DNA of 64,000 bases, taken from IMG/VR virus record IMGVR_UViG_3300036791_000759, positions 1 to 64,000 of that record; one strand, 5' to 3'. The notes under the pieces were generated by a model that was given only the letters and a program-made list of their open reading frames with translations, did not search any database and had not been told where the DNA came from. The stretch comes from a virus. The translations under genes were made by a program, and so were the position numbers. How positions within the stretch are numbered: position 1 is the first letter of the stretch; each line of letters opens with the position of its first letter. Below, in pieces: positions 1,205 to 63,899 of the stretch.

Positions 1205-1439
1205 GCCCGAGATCGACGAGATGGTCAAAGGGCTCGAAGAGATGACCAAGCAGGTAAAGGCCGGCGAGTTTGTCTCTTACATCATCGGCGCCTTTAGAGA
1301 GGACGCCAAGTTTATTAGCGTCGAGCGCGGCCGGGCGATGAGCCGCCTGCAGATCATCGGGATTTTAGAGTGCTGGAAGGCCGATATGCTCGACACGATG
1401 CCATCCGTCAGTGAGATGAAACTGCCAGACCCTGAATGA
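1167..1439 (+). CDS. 90-residue phage protein, unknown function
   Basis: A mostly helical, charged protein (KPEIDEMVKGLEEMTKQVKAG near the N-terminus) with no domain I recognise. AAAGGAAG precedes the ATG and a motif A palindrome lies in the leader. It ends by overlapping the helicase start (ATGATG), so it is probably co-translated with it. The second copy at 61150-61422 is identical. Confidence 0.75.
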   Translation: MKPRQVSIVPLPKPEIDEMVKGLEEMTKQVKAGEFVSYIIGAFREDAKFISVERGRAMSRLQIIGILECWKADMLDTMPSVSEMKLPDPE

Positions 1440-3916
1440 TGTTTCTCACCGCTGACGCACGACACCTCGTTATGCCGTGGCGACCCGATGTCGCCCGGTT
1501 AATCCCCCATGCACGGGAGTTCACCCATGAAGGACAACGCATGTTAGTACTGCCAAACAAACACGACGAAACCAGACTGGTGCGCAACCTCGGGCTCGCG
1601 GTCCCGCCGCCGGTGCTGACCCGTTATGACTGGCTGGGTCAGACCCCGTGGGCGATCCAGCGCACGACGACAGCGATGCTGACCGAGAACCAGCGGGCCT
1701 TTGTGCTGAACGAGTTTGGTTGTGTCGATGGCAGCACGGAGTATCTGTCGCCCGAAGGGTGGCGACATATATCTGACTATCAAGGCGGCTTAGTTGCGGA
1801 GTATCGCCCCGAGACAGGCTCAATCGGGTTTGTCGAGGCTGAGTATGTAAAGCAGCCATGCGATGAGATGATCCGGTTCAAGACGCGCTATGGCATCGAC
1901 CAGCTTCTGTCGCCCGAGCACCGCGTGCTTTATGTGGATCGTGCTGGCGAGACAAAAGTAGCCTCGGCGCAGTCTCTCTATGACCGCTACGACCGGATGC
2001 GTAACAAAGACGTGAGGTTCATTACGACCTTCCGGGTTGACGATGGCCGTGTCATACCCATGACTGACGCGGAGTTGCGGGTGCATGTCGCACTCACCGC
2101 CGATGGTTATACGCCTTACAACGAGCGCGTAGATGTCCGGCTAAAGAAGCCCCGCAAGATTGCCCGCATGGAGCAACTGCTTAACGATGCCAGCATAACT
2201 TTTACCAGTGTCCCAGTACAACCTGTTGGCTTCTTTAAGTTCACTTTTAACTGGCCCCATAAGAAAGGTTTCCAGTTTGGCTACGACATTTGCCAACATC
2301 AACTCGAAGTCATTGCCGACGAAGTAGTTCATTGGGATGGGTCGCAGCGCAAGGCCGGACTGTTTGAGTTCTCGTCGAGCAAATACGACGAGGCTAACTT
2401 TATCCAATTTGCCTACGCCGCGTCTGGTCGATGCGCATCTATCGGCTTGTCCGAACGTTATCGCCGGGGAGGTGAAGAGTGGGAATGGCGTGTGACGGCG
2501 CGTCGTAAATCCCTGATCGGGTTTACTCAGGCAAGTCAGCGGGCAACTCGCGCTATCACCAAGGAGCCGAGCCCCGACGGGTTTAAGTACTGCTTCATGG
2601 TGCCCAGCACGTTCCTGCTGTTGCGGCGCAATGGTTGCATTTTCGTAACCGGGAATACCGGGAAGACCAGATCGGTGATCTGGGCGGCCGACTGGCTGAA
2701 GCGCAGCGCCAATATCGGTCCGGTGCTGATCACCGCGCCGCTCTCGACCTTGACCCCGGTATGGGAGGCCGAGCTATTTAAACTACTGCCACGCGGCCGG
2801 GTCCAGGTGCTGCACGGCGACCGCGCCACCCGGCTCGAACGCCTGAAGCAAGATGCTGACTTTTATATCATCAACCACCACGGTCTAAAGCTGATCCAGA
2901 AGGAGCTGCTCGCGAAGAAGTTCCGGGTGTTTGTCATCGATGAACTCGCGGTTTTCCGCAACCGGCGCACTGGCCTCTGGAAGGCAGCGGCGGCGATCGT
3001 CGCGCAGACCGAGTGGGCCTGGGGCCTGACCGGCTCACCTACCCCCAAGGCGCCGACCGACGCCTGGGCGCAGATCCACATGCTGACCCCGGGCAACACG
3101 ACGCGGACCTGGGTCAGGTTTCGTGACCTGACCATGCGCCAGATCACCCAGTTCAAGTGGGTACGCCGGTCGGGCGCGCAGGAGCTGATCCACCAGCAGA
3201 TGCAGCCGAGCGTGCGGTTTGCACTGGAGGACGTGACCGAGCTGCCGCCCACCACCCACCGGCAGATCCCGGTGCCGCTGGAGCCCGAGGCCAAGCGAGC
3301 CTACGAGATTATGTTTAATAAGATGCGACTGCTCTACGAGAACCATGAGATCACCGCCGTCAACGAGGGTGTGCTGCAATCCAAGCTTCTCCAGGTGGCG
3401 TGTGGGTCGATCTACACCGATCGCGATGGCAAGGTTGAGCTGCCGGCGGCCGGGCGGCTCGACGCGTTAAAGGACATCGTCGAGAGCACCTCGCGCAAGG
3501 TGATCGTCTTTGTGCCGTTCATCCATGCGCTGGAGCGCGTGGCCGACTACCTGCGGGACACCGAGGAGGTAGCTGTGGTGCATGGCTCAACCCCCGTCGG
3601 GCAGCGCAACAAGATTTTCTCGGGGTTTCAGAACGAAGAGAGACCCCGGGTTATCGTCGCGCACCCGGCCTGCATGTCGCATGGCCTGACCCTGACCGCC
3701 GCCAACACCATCGTCTGGTACTGTCCGACAAACAACTTCGAGACCTACGAGCAGGCGAACGCCCGCGTTCGCCGTCCGGGCCAGACCGCAAAAACCTTGA
3801 TCGCCCACCTGGTGGGGACGCCGATTGAGCGGCTGTGCTACGCCAGGCTGCAGGACCGGGGGATCTTCCAGGGTGTGTTGCTCGATCTGTTCCACCAGCA
3901 GGAACTGGAGTTCTGA
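1436..3916 (+). CDS. SNF2-family DEAD/H helicase interrupted by an intein
   Basis: An 826-residue precursor; removing the intein (residues 96-407) leaves a helicase of about 514 residues. Motif I is rebuilt on splicing as NEFG + TGKTR. Motif II is IDELA (the usual DExx) and motif III is GLTGSPTP. The C-terminal RecA-like lobe has AHPACMSHGLTL and motif VI QANARVRRPGQ. This is the compact SNF2/DEXH helicase common in podovirus and siphovirus replication modules, acting on replicating or recombining DNA. It follows the VRR-NUC gene, a frequent pairing. The second copy (61419-63899) is identical. Confidence 0.93.
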   Translation: MMFLTADARHLVMPWRPDVARLIPHAREFTHEGQRMLVLPNKHDETRLVRNLGLAVPPPVLTRYDWLGQTPWAIQRTTTAMLTENQRAFVLNEFGCVDGSTEYLSPEGWRHISDYQGGLVAEYRPETGSIGFVEAEYVKQPCDEMIRFKTRYGIDQLLSPEHRVLYVDRAGETKVASAQSLYDRYDRMRNKDVRFITTFRVDDGRVIPMTDAELRVHVALTADGYTPYNERVDVRLKKPRKIARMEQLLNDASITFTSVPVQPVGFFKFTFNWPHKKGFQFGYDICQHQLEVIADEVVHWDGSQRKAGLFEFSSSKYDEANFIQFAYAASGRCASIGLSERYRRGGEEWEWRVTARRKSLIGFTQASQRATRAITKEPSPDGFKYCFMVPSTFLLLRRNGCIFVTGNTGKTRSVIWAADWLKRSANIGPVLITAPLSTLTPVWEAELFKLLPRGRVQVLHGDRATRLERLKQDADFYIINHHGLKLIQKELLAKKFRVFVIDELAVFRNRRTGLWKAAAAIVAQTEWAWGLTGSPTPKAPTDAWAQIHMLTPGNTTRTWVRFRDLTMRQITQFKWVRRSGAQELIHQQMQPSVRFALEDVTELPPTTHRQIPVPLEPEAKRAYEIMFNKMRLLYENHEITAVNEGVLQSKLLQVACGSIYTDRDGKVELPAAGRLDALKDIVESTSRKVIVFVPFIHALERVADYLRDTEEVAVVHGSTPVGQRNKIFSGFQNEERPRVIVAHPACMSHGLTLTAANTIVWYCPTNNFETYEQANARVRRPGQTAKTLIAHLVGTPIERLCYARLQDRGIFQGVLLDLFHQQELEF
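1721..2656 (+). other. Intein in helicase P-loop, with degenerate LAGLIDADG region
   Basis: A 312-residue intein begins at Cys96 (CVDGSTEYLSPEGW, block A) and ends with FVTGN before extein Thr. Block B is LLSPEHRVLY; block F/G is YCFMVPSTFLLLRRNG...FVTGN. The terminal pair is Gly-Asn rather than His-Asn, a known but less common variant. The middle contains VHVALTADGY and LEVIADEVVHWDGS, which resemble two LAGLIDADG helices, so a homing endonuclease domain is likely present but possibly decayed. The insertion lies exactly between G and TGKT of Walker A, so the helicase is inactive until splicing. Confidence 0.9.
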
Positions 3917-41155: not shown

Positions 41156-43351
41156 GTGGAATACGTTCCACCACCCACCGTCGAAGCCTTTATGCGGGAC
41201 ACGCACCGCATCCGCGTCATCGTCGGGCCCTTGGGCTCCGGCAAGACGATGGGTTGTATTATGGAGCTGGTGCGCTGGGCCTGTGCCCAGCCGGCGTGGA
41301 ACAAGACGCGCTATACCCGCTTCGCCCTCATAAGAAACACCCTGCAACAACTCCGCCAGACCGTGCTCGCCGACGCGGTGAGCTATCTCCAGGGTGTGGT
41401 GCATTTCTACACCACCGACTCGACCCTGCAGCTGCGATTAAATCTCCCCGACGGGACGCATGTCCACTCGGACTGGCCGCTCATCCCGCTCGACAGCAAG
41501 GAAGACGTTCGGCGCTTGCTATCCATGCAACTCACCGGCGCCTACATCAACGAGCTGCGCGAAGTCCCGTTTGACATCATCCGGCCGCTGCTTGGTAGGT
41601 GCGGCCGCTACCCCTCCAAGGCAATGGGCGGCGCCGCCAAGCGCGGGATCATCGCCGATACCAACCCGTGGGACACCGACGCGCCCTACCACGACCGTCT
41701 GGTGCTCAATCCCCACCCGGCGTGGAAGCTCTTTCACCAGCCCTCGGGTCTGAGCCCCCTGGCGGAGAACATCGAAAACCTCGCCGAGGGTTATTACGAC
41801 GAGCTGATGGACGATAAGGATCTCGACTGGGCAGCGGTCCACGTCGAATCGCAGTGGGGCACGTCCAACGCCGGCCAGGCGGTTTTTAGAAAGAGCTTTC
41901 ACGCCCCCAGCCACGTCCGCGACATGAAGGTGGTGGTCAACCCGGCCAAGCCGATCATGGTTGGTCTCGATTTTGGCCGCACCCCCTGCGCGGTCATTGG
42001 CCAGCACGACAATTACGGCCGCGCGATCATCATGAAGGAGGTGGTCACCGAGGGGATGGGGCTCATCCAGATGGTGGAGGAGCACCTCAAACCAGTCCTC
42101 TTAGCGCCACCCTTTGCCGGAAAGCGAGTTTTTATCGTTGGCGACCCCGCCGGCCGGGCACGCAGCCAGGTCTCCGAGTCGACCCCGTTTGACGATCTCA
42201 ATGATCTCGGGTTTCTGGCTTATCCGGCATCGACCAACGCGATCGACGCACGTTTGACTGCTGTCGAGAAGCTGATGCGCTCGACAATCATGGAGCAGCC
42301 GGCGCTGCAGATCTCGCGCGAGGGCTGCCCCATCCTGGTGCAGTCCCTCGGAAATAAATATCGCTATCGCCGCCGGCGCGACGGCCAGCTCGACGATCTG
42401 CCCGACAAGCAGCACCCGTGGTCGGACGTATGTTTTGTCGCCGGGACACCGATCGCGACGCCTATGGGCGATGTACCCATCGAGACACTGCGTCCCGGCC
42501 ATCTAGTAGCAACGCCGGCCGGGGCGCGCCGGATCGAAGTCACTGGCGCCCGCGAAGTGGCCGTTACGGTGGAAGTTAAATTAAGCGACGGACGCACTGT
42601 GCGCTGCACGCCCGAGCACCCGTTTGCCTGTCAAGGGCAGTGGGTTCCGGCATTCATGCTCCGGCAGGGAGACGTATTAGAATGCCAACAACGAAACAGA
42701 AGTTCCTCGGTAAATGGTATTACCGATACGGCGGTAACCAATACTTCTGGAACAAAAACGGCGGCAAATCGACCTCGCTGCACCGGGCCGTCTGGGAACA
42801 CCATAACGGACCGCCTCCGCCAGGCTGCCACGTCCATCACAAGGACGGTGACCCAGCTAACAACGACATTGCCAACCTGGAAATTTACACGGCTAGCGAC
42901 CACGCCCGCAAACATTGGGCCGGCACTATTCCAGAGGAGTTTACCTGCGTTCGCTGTGGGAAGCCCTACAAGGTCATTGCTCAAGCCCGCAAGCGGGGGT
43001 TCTGCTCACCGTATTGTCAATCCAGGACACGACTCGAAAGCGGGATCGACCACGAAGCCAGGATCTGCGTCCAATGCGGCGTACCTTTTTTCGTCAACAA
43101 ATACACCCCGATTAAAACCTGTTCCCGTCGTTGCGGAACTAAAATATCTGCAAGAAAGCGTAATAGTAATAAATCTAAGAGTAGCTAACACTCATTGCTA
43201 TTATGCCAACTCATTACTTGTTCATAACTGTGACGCCCTACAATACTTCTGTTTAGGCACCCAGTCTAACTACACCGCGCGGGTCATGCGGCGCGACCGG
43301 CCGCGTGTCACCCAATCCCGAGAACTCGTCACCGCCGCCGGGTGGACCTGA
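41156..43351 (+). CDS. terL: Terminase large subunit interrupted by an intein
   Basis: A 731-residue precursor; removing the intein (residues 426-691) leaves about 465 residues. The N-terminal ATPase has Walker A GPLGSGKT (residues 24-31), the Q-like motif IRNTLQQLRQT, and Walker B-like AYINELREV. The RNase H-like nuclease has VGLDFGRTP (Asp near 271) and VGDPAGRARSQ. The spliced extein reads SDV + CDALQYF, where the last catalytic Asp of the nuclease lies. The GTG start directly follows the TerS stop. It packages the genome into proheads. Confidence 0.92.
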   Translation: MEYVPPPTVEAFMRDTHRIRVIVGPLGSGKTMGCIMELVRWACAQPAWNKTRYTRFALIRNTLQQLRQTVLADAVSYLQGVVHFYTTDSTLQLRLNLPDGTHVHSDWPLIPLDSKEDVRRLLSMQLTGAYINELREVPFDIIRPLLGRCGRYPSKAMGGAAKRGIIADTNPWDTDAPYHDRLVLNPHPAWKLFHQPSGLSPLAENIENLAEGYYDELMDDKDLDWAAVHVESQWGTSNAGQAVFRKSFHAPSHVRDMKVVVNPAKPIMVGLDFGRTPCAVIGQHDNYGRAIIMKEVVTEGMGLIQMVEEHLKPVLLAPPFAGKRVFIVGDPAGRARSQVSESTPFDDLNDLGFLAYPASTNAIDARLTAVEKLMRSTIMEQPALQISREGCPILVQSLGNKYRYRRRRDGQLDDLPDKQHPWSDVCFVAGTPIATPMGDVPIETLRPGHLVATPAGARRIEVTGAREVAVTVEVKLSDGRTVRCTPEHPFACQGQWVPAFMLRQGDVLECQQRNRSSSVNGITDTAVTNTSGTKTAANRPRCTGPSGNTITDRLRQAATSITRTVTQLTTTLPTWKFTRLATTPANIGPALFQRSLPAFAVGSPTRSLLKPASGGSAHRIVNPGHDSKAGSTTKPGSASNAAYLFSSTNTPRLKPVPVVAELKYLQESVIVINLRVANTHCYYANSLLVHNCDALQYFCLGTQSNYTARVMRRDRPRVTQSRELVTAAGWT
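42431..43228 (+). other. TerL intein
   Basis: A 266-residue intein starts CFVAGTPIATPMGDVPIETL (block A) and has CTPEHPFACQGQWV (block B). It ends INLRVANTHCYYANSLLVHN before extein Cys (blocks F and G), so all splice residues are present. The 170 codons between blocks B and F are low-complexity Ser/Thr/Pro/Arg with no endonuclease in frame; that DNA encodes an HNH protein in another frame. Insertion is at the TerL nuclease active-site loop. Confidence 0.93.
42682..43188 (+). CDS. HNH homing endonuclease nested out of frame in the intein
   Basis: A 168-residue protein in the -1 (+2) frame relative to TerL. From the ATG with an upstream AGGGAG it reads MPTTKQKFLGKWYYRYGG, then an HNH domain (LHRAVWEHHNGPPPPG, CHVHHKDGDPANNDIANLE, DHARKHW). 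Two zinc ribbons follow (CVRCGKPYK...FCSPYC and CVQCGVPF...CSRRC), and it ends in a basic Ser/Lys tail. The first ORF Met lies 42 bases further upstream, but the chosen start fits the ribosome-binding site. It overlaps the intein through block F coding DNA. Confidence 0.88.
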   Translation: MPTTKQKFLGKWYYRYGGNQYFWNKNGGKSTSLHRAVWEHHNGPPPPGCHVHHKDGDPANNDIANLEIYTASDHARKHWAGTIPEEFTCVRCGKPYKVIAQARKRGFCSPYCQSRTRLESGIDHEARICVQCGVPFFVNKYTPIKTCSRRCGTKISARKRNSNKSKSS

Positions 43352-55915: not shown

Positions 55916-56383
55916 GTGGCTGTGTCTGGTGATCTACTCATAGACCATGACGGGTACTACGCGCCGGCTTGGCGTGGGTCAGCAGGCGCCAGGCCGCCGC
56001 TTTACCGGCTTTGGACTAATATCAGGAACCGCTGCAATAACATGCGTACCCACGATTACCGTTATTACGGTGGTCGTGGGATTAAAGTCTGTGCCCGATG
56101 GGACAACTTTGATGCGTTCGCGCACGACGTAGGTGACTATCCCGGTAAAGGGTGGACGCTCGATCGCATTAACAACGACGGCAACTATGAACTGGGCAAT
56201 GTGCGCTGGGCAACGCGGCGTACTCAGGCGCGCAATAGAAATTATTGTGTATTAACTAAATATGACGCAGACAAAATACGTAGATTGTATGATGAAGGTA
56301 TAATTCAAACTGAACTTGCAGTAATGTTTAATGTGCATCAAGCACATATTAGTGCTATTATTAGAAGGATTATTTGGAAATGA
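55916..56383 (+). CDS. HNH-type putative homing endonuclease upstream of PolA
   Basis: A 155-residue protein (GTG start). RLWTNIRNRCNNMRTHDYRYYGGRGIKVCARWDNFDAFAHDVG, then LDRINNDGNYELGNVRWATRRTQARN, is the block of small phage endonucleases usually called HNH-like homing nucleases. A C-terminal HTH-like part (DADKIRRLYDEGIIQTELAVMFNVHQAHISAIIRR) probably gives DNA specificity. It overlaps the polymerase start by ATGA. The AT-rich 3' half differs from its neighbours, a sign of transfer. Confidence 0.75.
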   Translation: MAVSGDLLIDHDGYYAPAWRGSAGARPPLYRLWTNIRNRCNNMRTHDYRYYGGRGIKVCARWDNFDAFAHDVGDYPGKGWTLDRINNDGNYELGNVRWATRRTQARNRNYCVLTKYDADKIRRLYDEGIIQTELAVMFNVHQAHISAIIRRIIWK

Positions 56384-61187: not shown

Positions 61188-61422
61188 GCCCGAGATCGAC
61201 GAGATGGTCAAAGGGCTCGAAGAGATGACCAAGCAGGTAAAGGCCGGCGAGTTTGTCTCTTACATCATCGGCGCCTTTAGAGAGGACGCCAAGTTTATTA
61301 GCGTCGAGCGCGGCCGGGCGATGAGCCGCCTGCAGATCATCGGGATTTTAGAGTGCTGGAAGGCCGATATGCTCGACACGATGCCATCCGTCAGTGAGAT
61401 GAAACTGCCAGACCCTGAATGA
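61150..61422 (+). CDS. 90-residue protein, copy 2
   Basis: Identical to 1167-1439; same leader and coupling to the helicase gene. Confidence 0.75.
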   Translation: MKPRQVSIVPLPKPEIDEMVKGLEEMTKQVKAGEFVSYIIGAFREDAKFISVERGRAMSRLQIIGILECWKADMLDTMPSVSEMKLPDPE

Positions 61423-63899
61423 TGTTTCTCACCGCTGACGCACGACACCTCGTTATGCCGTGGCGACCCGATGTCGCCCGGTTAATCCCCCATGCACGGG
61501 AGTTCACCCATGAAGGACAACGCATGTTAGTACTGCCAAACAAACACGACGAAACCAGACTGGTGCGCAACCTCGGGCTCGCGGTCCCGCCGCCGGTGCT
61601 GACCCGTTATGACTGGCTGGGTCAGACCCCGTGGGCGATCCAGCGCACGACGACAGCGATGCTGACCGAGAACCAGCGGGCCTTTGTGCTGAACGAGTTT
61701 GGTTGTGTCGATGGCAGCACGGAGTATCTGTCGCCCGAAGGGTGGCGACATATATCTGACTATCAAGGCGGCTTAGTTGCGGAGTATCGCCCCGAGACAG
61801 GCTCAATCGGGTTTGTCGAGGCTGAGTATGTAAAGCAGCCATGCGATGAGATGATCCGGTTCAAGACGCGCTATGGCATCGACCAGCTTCTGTCGCCCGA
61901 GCACCGCGTGCTTTATGTGGATCGTGCTGGCGAGACAAAAGTAGCCTCGGCGCAGTCTCTCTATGACCGCTACGACCGGATGCGTAACAAAGACGTGAGG
62001 TTCATTACGACCTTCCGGGTTGACGATGGCCGTGTCATACCCATGACTGACGCGGAGTTGCGGGTGCATGTCGCACTCACCGCCGATGGTTATACGCCTT
62101 ACAACGAGCGCGTAGATGTCCGGCTAAAGAAGCCCCGCAAGATTGCCCGCATGGAGCAACTGCTTAACGATGCCAGCATAACTTTTACCAGTGTCCCAGT
62201 ACAACCTGTTGGCTTCTTTAAGTTCACTTTTAACTGGCCCCATAAGAAAGGTTTCCAGTTTGGCTACGACATTTGCCAACATCAACTCGAAGTCATTGCC
62301 GACGAAGTAGTTCATTGGGATGGGTCGCAGCGCAAGGCCGGACTGTTTGAGTTCTCGTCGAGCAAATACGACGAGGCTAACTTTATCCAATTTGCCTACG
62401 CCGCGTCTGGTCGATGCGCATCTATCGGCTTGTCCGAACGTTATCGCCGGGGAGGTGAAGAGTGGGAATGGCGTGTGACGGCGCGTCGTAAATCCCTGAT
62501 CGGGTTTACTCAGGCAAGTCAGCGGGCAACTCGCGCTATCACCAAGGAGCCGAGCCCCGACGGGTTTAAGTACTGCTTCATGGTGCCCAGCACGTTCCTG
62601 CTGTTGCGGCGCAATGGTTGCATTTTCGTAACCGGGAATACCGGGAAGACCAGATCGGTGATCTGGGCGGCCGACTGGCTGAAGCGCAGCGCCAATATCG
62701 GTCCGGTGCTGATCACCGCGCCGCTCTCGACCTTGACCCCGGTATGGGAGGCCGAGCTATTTAAACTACTGCCACGCGGCCGGGTCCAGGTGCTGCACGG
62801 CGACCGCGCCACCCGGCTCGAACGCCTGAAGCAAGATGCTGACTTTTATATCATCAACCACCACGGTCTAAAGCTGATCCAGAAGGAGCTGCTCGCGAAG
62901 AAGTTCCGGGTGTTTGTCATCGATGAACTCGCGGTTTTCCGCAACCGGCGCACTGGCCTCTGGAAGGCAGCGGCGGCGATCGTCGCGCAGACCGAGTGGG
63001 CCTGGGGCCTGACCGGCTCACCTACCCCCAAGGCGCCGACCGACGCCTGGGCGCAGATCCACATGCTGACCCCGGGCAACACGACGCGGACCTGGGTCAG
63101 GTTTCGTGACCTGACCATGCGCCAGATCACCCAGTTCAAGTGGGTACGCCGGTCGGGCGCGCAGGAGCTGATCCACCAGCAGATGCAGCCGAGCGTGCGG
63201 TTTGCACTGGAGGACGTGACCGAGCTGCCGCCCACCACCCACCGGCAGATCCCGGTGCCGCTGGAGCCCGAGGCCAAGCGAGCCTACGAGATTATGTTTA
63301 ATAAGATGCGACTGCTCTACGAGAACCATGAGATCACCGCCGTCAACGAGGGTGTGCTGCAATCCAAGCTTCTCCAGGTGGCGTGTGGGTCGATCTACAC
63401 CGATCGCGATGGCAAGGTTGAGCTGCCGGCGGCCGGGCGGCTCGACGCGTTAAAGGACATCGTCGAGAGCACCTCGCGCAAGGTGATCGTCTTTGTGCCG
63501 TTCATCCATGCGCTGGAGCGCGTGGCCGACTACCTGCGGGACACCGAGGAGGTAGCTGTGGTGCATGGCTCAACCCCCGTCGGGCAGCGCAACAAGATTT
63601 TCTCGGGGTTTCAGAACGAAGAGAGACCCCGGGTTATCGTCGCGCACCCGGCCTGCATGTCGCATGGCCTGACCCTGACCGCCGCCAACACCATCGTCTG
63701 GTACTGTCCGACAAACAACTTCGAGACCTACGAGCAGGCGAACGCCCGCGTTCGCCGTCCGGGCCAGACCGCAAAAACCTTGATCGCCCACCTGGTGGGG
63801 ACGCCGATTGAGCGGCTGTGCTACGCCAGGCTGCAGGACCGGGGGATCTTCCAGGGTGTGTTGCTCGATCTGTTCCACCAGCAGGAACTGGAGTTCTGA
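61419..63899 (+). CDS. SNF2-family helicase with intein, copy 2
   Basis: Identical to 1436-3916, including the intein and all motifs. It belongs to the redundant end of the window rather than to a second functional gene. Confidence 0.93.
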   Translation: MMFLTADARHLVMPWRPDVARLIPHAREFTHEGQRMLVLPNKHDETRLVRNLGLAVPPPVLTRYDWLGQTPWAIQRTTTAMLTENQRAFVLNEFGCVDGSTEYLSPEGWRHISDYQGGLVAEYRPETGSIGFVEAEYVKQPCDEMIRFKTRYGIDQLLSPEHRVLYVDRAGETKVASAQSLYDRYDRMRNKDVRFITTFRVDDGRVIPMTDAELRVHVALTADGYTPYNERVDVRLKKPRKIARMEQLLNDASITFTSVPVQPVGFFKFTFNWPHKKGFQFGYDICQHQLEVIADEVVHWDGSQRKAGLFEFSSSKYDEANFIQFAYAASGRCASIGLSERYRRGGEEWEWRVTARRKSLIGFTQASQRATRAITKEPSPDGFKYCFMVPSTFLLLRRNGCIFVTGNTGKTRSVIWAADWLKRSANIGPVLITAPLSTLTPVWEAELFKLLPRGRVQVLHGDRATRLERLKQDADFYIINHHGLKLIQKELLAKKFRVFVIDELAVFRNRRTGLWKAAAAIVAQTEWAWGLTGSPTPKAPTDAWAQIHMLTPGNTTRTWVRFRDLTMRQITQFKWVRRSGAQELIHQQMQPSVRFALEDVTELPPTTHRQIPVPLEPEAKRAYEIMFNKMRLLYENHEITAVNEGVLQSKLLQVACGSIYTDRDGKVELPAAGRLDALKDIVESTSRKVIVFVPFIHALERVADYLRDTEEVAVVHGSTPVGQRNKIFSGFQNEERPRVIVAHPACMSHGLTLTAANTIVWYCPTNNFETYEQANARVRRPGQTAKTLIAHLVGTPIERLCYARLQDRGIFQGVLLDLFHQQELEF
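61704..62639 (+). other. Intein in helicase, copy 2
   Basis: Identical to the intein at 1721-2656 (Cys start, Gly-Asn end). Confidence 0.9.

Follow-up and report, generated by a model that had tools for sequence, protein, structure and literature searches.

A phage terminase intein with an HNH endonuclease gene nested in its −1 reading frame, and the occurrence of similar arrangements

The window analysed here is a stretch of 64,000 nucleotides of viral DNA (positions 1 to 64,000 of IMG/VR record IMGVR_UViG_3300036791_000759). Its gene for the terminase large subunit (TerL) contains a complete intein, and the DNA between the two splicing halves encodes an HNH endonuclease in the −1 frame, as a separate gene with its own start. 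The architecture is conserved, selection acts both for an intact HNH protein and for an open intein frame, and signals for internal initiation are present. We consider it very probable that the two form a composite mobile element, in which a protein-splicing TerL intein is combined with an internally initiated HNH gene that drives homing. In the mechanism that we propose, the intein, a splicing domain with a disordered linker at a conserved TerL site, would be spliced out of the protein. The HNH protein would be translated from the terL mRNA via its own internal start, a Shine-Dalgarno (SD) sequence and ATG just after block B, and would cut intein-less terL alleles during co-infection; repair of the cut allele would then copy the intein and the HNH gene together. 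All that would be required of the intein frame where it crosses the HNH gene is that it contain no stop codon. Splicing, empty-site cleavage and homing are what the sequences lead us to expect.

The terL open reading frame (ORF) is continuous from 41156 to 43351 on the + strand, with the intein at 42431–43228. The N-extein (41156–42430, with a GTG start) was identified from its relatives and from its match to phrog_2, terminase large subunit (E=3.7e-21). The C-extein (43229–43351) starts with Cys+1 in the sequence CDALQYF; the insertion is at the conserved TerL site SDV/CDALQYF, which is empty in intein-less homologues. The intein is 266 amino acids long, from Cys1 at 42431 to Asn266 at 43226–43228. 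Its N-terminal splicing half, comprising blocks A and B (residues 1–88, 42431–42694, + strand), has invariant Cys1 and TxxH, the latter being TPEH (T60xxH63) in block B. The C-terminal half, comprising blocks F and G (residues 229–266, 43115–43228, + strand), contains the sequence VINLRVANTHCYYANSLLVHN, ending in VHN and followed by C, and shares its DNA up to 43188 with the 3′ end of the HNH gene. C1, T60xxH63, N266 and C+1 are all present, and are kept in relatives. Both halves lie in the one ORF, and not in separate ORFs as in a split intein.

Pfam identifies Hint_2 in the intein (E=2.8e-9, above the Pfam cutoff); Intein_splicing spans residues 45–266 with a score below its cutoff. Models of the intein and the HNH protein were built with AlphaFold2 using alignments gathered in this analysis. 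The intein model has a Hint fold, with pLDDT of about 95–98 in residues 1–88 and 229–266, and Foldseek gave a probability of 1.0 to the gp41-1, BIL and RecA inteins; the fold is like that of mini-inteins such as gp41-1 and of the RecA intein. The linker between the halves (residues 90–228, 42698–43114, + strand) is stop-free and predicted to be disordered: it has no secondary structure and a pLDDT of mostly 32–54. The preliminary description, made from the sequence alone, had proposed an intein with intact splice blocks around a low-complexity stretch; the first part is borne out, and the second is a fair account of the linker. The intein is probably removed from the TerL protein by splicing.

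The nested HNH gene (42682–43188, + strand, −1 frame) encodes 168 amino acids. It starts at the ATG at 42682, and 10 nt upstream of this is the SD-like AGGGAG (42666–42671), a position at which SDs are enriched among homologous starts. The HNH_3 catalytic core (PF13392; residues 33–76, 42778–42909) was matched with E=2.4e-16 and 59.5 bits against a cutoff of 24.8, and H52, H53, N61, N65 and H74 are invariant in 43 homologues. Two zinc ribbons follow, recognised from the sequence: C89/C92/C108/C112 (42946–43017), where the four Cys are invariant among homologues, and C129/C132/C147/C151 (43066–43134). The stop codon falls at intein residues 252–253, within block F. The frame, ATG, AGGGAG and two four-Cys clusters, and the end of the gene inside the DNA for block F, are thus as first described. 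The AlphaFold2 model has a mean pLDDT of 93.7, and its best match in the PDB is the HNH homing enzyme I-HmuI (1u3e), with a probability of 0.99 but an E value of 0.012 and a TM score of 0.34.

We then scanned viral and genome contigs with two alignments, one of six HNHs (A1) and one of six inteins (A2), used local HMMs to assign the ORFs of all six frames to classes, and removed HNHs more than 80% identical. Among the non-redundant loci, at least 138 have an uninterrupted intein ORF in which the HNH is nested at −1, one has it nested at +1, one has it in frame (L191), and 13 are split inteins in which the HNH has a cistron of its own between the two halves. Since nested cases served to train the HMMs used for classification, and the loci are top-scoring samples, these frequencies are not census values. 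The +1 case (L170:1530-3596, on a Planctomycetota contig) is the one TerL intein found with this frame. When the HNH query was used alone, it was nested at −1 in 57 of the best 80 viral loci and in 19 of 51 genome loci. The splicing N-domain query alone (five intein N-terminal splicing halves) gave nested −1 in 47 of its best 80 loci; 11 of the 80 are mini-inteins, and an HNH in frame with the intein was found in none of them. In 106 nested loci the N-extein belongs to a terminase large subunit, with phrog_2 matched in 84 and further TerL families in others, and the intein junctions lie at several TerL sites. Cys1 is present in 134/138 loci and TxxH in 136/138, and Asn is followed by C, S or T at 126/126 detected ends. 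Nested −1 HNHs also occur in the Tetrasphaera phage TJE1, the Acinetobacter phage Highwayman, the Rhodobacteraceae phage MD07, MT838676 and the Halobacterium plasmid pGSL19_54.9, and in all of these the host ORF continues through the HNH gene.

A second class of nested nuclease was found in inteins without HNH in phage DNA helicases (phrog_62), where the +1 frame encodes a nuclease that matches DUF559 above the Pfam cutoff. There are at least 83 such loci, 43 of them non-redundant and none in frame, and 4 further loci are apparently cut by contig ends. The class includes L292:3501-4356, L319, L325, L336, L337 and L364–L442, and the +1 enzyme is also found in the helicase genes of Pseudomonas phage MR14 and Vibrio phages CP-T1 and 159E43-1b. 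The intein frame contains no stops, against 315 expected. We take the residue pattern of the nuclease to resemble that of the Vsr-like/EDxHD homing family; when solved structures were searched by sequence with the DUF559-type enzyme, no useful match came up. The L319 and L325 nucleases contain segments similar to the zinc-ribbon part of the HNH family (phrog_15471). We note that the helicase mini-intein at L310:248-750 has a short remnant of a DUF559-type nuclease in the +1 frame, apparently from decay of a nested gene. The window itself has an SNF2-type helicase ORF with an apparent intein at both of its ends (1436–3916 and 61419–63899), which is end redundancy with a period of about 60 kb; Pfam shows only helicase domains in the ORF at 1436–3916.

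The intein is absent from most TerL relatives: among 37 loci of close relatives there is one intein-plus TerL and one free HNH, and intein-plus and intein-minus TerLs were found in one sample, 3300036846. The close relative L001 (IMG/VR 3300036846_001535) has the insert, with the same two frames open. Free-standing HNH relatives adjoin terL or terS in cultured phages, and are found beside terL in L027, FBPa53, SN1, CL2, EauM-23 and PhiSTP1. The nearest non-nested HNH to that of the window is in L027 (44% identity over 185 alignment columns), where it stands free immediately downstream of an intein-less terL belonging to the same phage group; the HNHs of the window, L001 and L027 form a clade with 99% SH-aLRT support. 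The window also contains a small ORF (55916–56383) resembling a free-standing HNH-type gene, which overlaps the start of a downstream DNA polymerase-like ORF and has no Pfam match at E 0.01.

This patchy distribution is what suggests that the HNH enzyme cuts the empty target site and causes homing. The alternative that fares best is that the HNH protein is a packaging partner of the terminase, as in HK97, and that it is kept with TerL for that function and is not a homing enzyme. HK97-type HNH proteins do act with terminase (discussed in PMC10448857), and the present family is tied to terL, whether nested in it or free-standing beside it; furthermore, HNH distances follow those of TerL (Mantel r=0.28, compared with 0.14 for HNH and intein and 0.08 for intein and TerL). 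A packaging partner would nevertheless hardly be expected in so few close TerL relatives or to reside inside inteins; the best fold match is to a homing enzyme, and an unrelated nuclease is similarly nested in helicase genes. We therefore regard a packaging role as improbable, and homing as the better reading.

The signals at the start of the HNH gene indicate how it is expressed. An SD is found at the most upstream HNH ATG of the expected zone in 58/99 loci (59%), compared with 20% for control ATGs in the same frame within the N-extein (P=1.5e-12); the window has an SD of moderate strength, and in 41% of relatives the first ATG lacks a clear one. In 110/113 loci the HNH frame meets an upstream stop that is still within the intein, at a median of 4 codons before the ATG. 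Because there is a stop just before the ATG and SDs are enriched, internal initiation is favoured over frameshifting. Programmed −1 ribosomal frameshifting, which would produce the HNH without its own start as a fusion of TerL, intein N-half and HNH, would account for the offset in the TerL class being nearly always −1, the commonest direction of programmed frameshifting. It is nonetheless very unlikely, since the upstream stop leaves hardly any space for a slip site, SDs are enriched at the ATG, and the helicase class sits at +1. Moreover, in the split relatives the HNH has a separate start with its own SD, mostly of 6 nt, and all three frames occur relative to the N-half, from which it follows that a fixed frame is a property of the nested state. 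The composition of the HNH gene by itself favours −1: free-standing and split HNH genes contain 3.3 stops per 100 codons in the frame needed for −1 nesting and 9.0 in the other, so that the −1 frame can be held open more easily. Its prevalence may in part also reflect common descent.

Selection on the two frames was assessed from stop codons and from substitutions. The expected number of stops was obtained by synonymous codon shuffling within each gene, which keeps the protein and its codon usage. For the stretch of intein frame that runs across the HNH gene, 323 stops are expected over the 138 non-redundant nested loci and 0 are observed, a count to be read with the facts that “nested” is defined by an open frame and that interruptions occur in only 13 of about 150 loci, these 13 being organised split inteins. 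The third, unused forward frame in the same loci has 2233 stops, against 2348 expected. For the window alone the test is weak (0 stops observed, 0.87 expected), so that the strength of stop avoidance comes from the relatives.

Substitutions between the window and L001 follow the HNH codons, with counts of 37/26/75 at HNH codon positions 1, 2 and 3, and over 24 listed pairs, one of which is a duplicate, the figures are 1052/873/1990. HNH position 3 is position 2 of the intein frame, and for this reason the residues of the linker are not conserved. The HNH frame is thus selected as a protein, and the intein frame is selected for openness only. Codon-level comparison of both frames, which had been put forward as a check, therefore supports the original claim that the two share DNA with the intein frame kept open, as do the open frames of L001. 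The HNH gene (window 42682–43188, L001:1962-2468) is only 72.8% identical at the nucleotide level (27% divergence), falling to 43% in one 60-nt stretch, with no indel and both frames open, compared with 93.5% for the N-extein, 92.8% for the intein N-half and 97–100% on the C side; this reflects either fast evolution or module exchange. The weak statistics of the window would allow the HNH to be a decaying relic with a frame that is open by chance, but its catalytic and zinc residues are intact, the codon-position bias fits selection on the HNH, and the arrangement is conserved over about 140 non-redundant loci, making this highly unlikely.

A displacement of an originally in-frame HNH domain by sequencing or assembly frameshifts has nothing to recommend it beyond the out-of-frame position itself, and would need two compensating shifts in each of many independent genomes, cultured phages included, so it can be dismissed. 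A search for in-frame relatives that covered viral, genome and phage collections yielded just L191, an unrelated archaeal ribonucleotide-reductase (RNR) intein; within the TerL family there were none among the loci examined. Both observations that the preliminary description had named as fatal to it, a frameshift error and relatives with the HNH fused in frame, therefore failed to appear.

That description had also suggested that a free-standing HNH gene invaded a mini-intein. The L027 gene, free beside an intein-less terL, agrees with this; however, the arrangement is old and widespread, and the event need not have taken place in this phage. The HNH tree has many weak nodes and does not resolve the direction of change between nested, free and split forms. 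The Acinetobacter phages Highwayman (L060, HNH nested) and BP10 (L282, free HNH before terS) have flanks that are 93–96% identical, between which the terS–terL modules have been exchanged, and their HNHs are 51% identical. The distance correlations between HNH, intein and TerL are weak, so intein and HNH may not always travel together, modules may be exchanged, and the arrangement may have arisen once or have been assembled repeatedly. The pattern of free and nested HNHs would fit a history in which collaborative homing came first and the intein later captured the HNH.

The split TerL inteins (L079, L083, L099, L119, L121, L128, L136, L142, L152, L156, L157, L167, L175 and L181) consist of an N-half that terminates at a stop codon of its own, an independent HNH cistron, in most cases preceded by a strong SD, and a C-half with a new start. 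They are candidate new natural split inteins. An unstructured linker can gain a stop to give such a three-cistron split intein, and we therefore see the nested state as a bridge. We think it reasonably probable that phage inteins commonly have their homing endonuclease encoded by a distinct gene that overlaps the intein in a fixed frame other than its own, that at least two unrelated nuclease families are encoded in this way (HNH in TerL at −1, DUF559/Vsr-like in helicases at +1), both using the frame in which fewer stops must be avoided, and that the nested state bridges free-standing endonucleases, mini-inteins and split inteins. The preliminary description had not seen the split forms, the second nuclease family or how common the arrangement is. 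There would then be a concrete route by which an endonuclease that stands free next to its target comes to lie within an intein, and the intein in turn becomes split; each of these states has natural examples. The nested arrangement could allow the level of the enzyme to be set independently of the host protein, and the loci form large natural collections of gene pairs that overlap completely, where the absence of stops is all that is required of one frame.

In textbook inteins the endonuclease is fused in frame. Annotation and intein surveys based on this model read one frame, and would class the present cases as inteins with a long unrecognised linker; in TJE1, Highwayman, CP-T1 and MR14 the annotation names just the terminase or helicase, and the nested nuclease was missed. 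The accessible part of a survey of mycobacteriophage TerL inteins makes no mention of nested frames (PMC5050341). In the literature searched, which covered few subscription papers, we found no description of an out-of-frame endonuclease inside a true intein, and the nested design in phage inteins is seemingly undescribed.

The nearest precedent found is the ShiLan domain, reported together with the Pacc40 gp60 insertion (Arsenault, Gosselin, Gogarten 2025, PMC11855218). As in the window, an out-of-frame HNH lies in a phage gene whose own frame stays free of stops; the ShiLan HNH is likewise in the third (−1) frame, has zinc fingers and is thought to home (PMC11855218). In contrast, its authors found no intein or intron, and the insert is believed to remain in the host protein (PMC11855218), whereas the window intein has a complete splicing domain. 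The ShiLan host is a dispensable methylase; the host in the window is TerL with an intact intein, from which the insert should be removable by splicing. Free-standing phage homing endonucleases beside their targets, and collaborative homing, are discussed in PMC10448857. The free-standing relatives of the window HNH beside terL resemble these, but the window HNH itself sits within the splicing element.

I-HmuI, the best structural match to the HNH model, is encoded in a group I intron, unlike the window HNH. Canonical large inteins with LAGLIDADG or HNH endonucleases share with the window intein the Hint domain, C1, TxxH, the terminal N and C+1, and the position of the endonuclease DNA between the splicing halves; they differ in that the endonuclease is an in-frame domain, and the contrast first drawn with them holds, since the HNH is at −1 in both the window and L001, as a separate overlapping gene. 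Fractured genes, in which a free endonuclease gene lies between the halves of a split intein, were reportedly described by Dassa and colleagues in 2009. The 13 split relatives fit this description, with an HNH as the endonuclease; in the window, by contrast, an uninterrupted intein frame runs over the nuclease gene, and trans-splicing is not needed.
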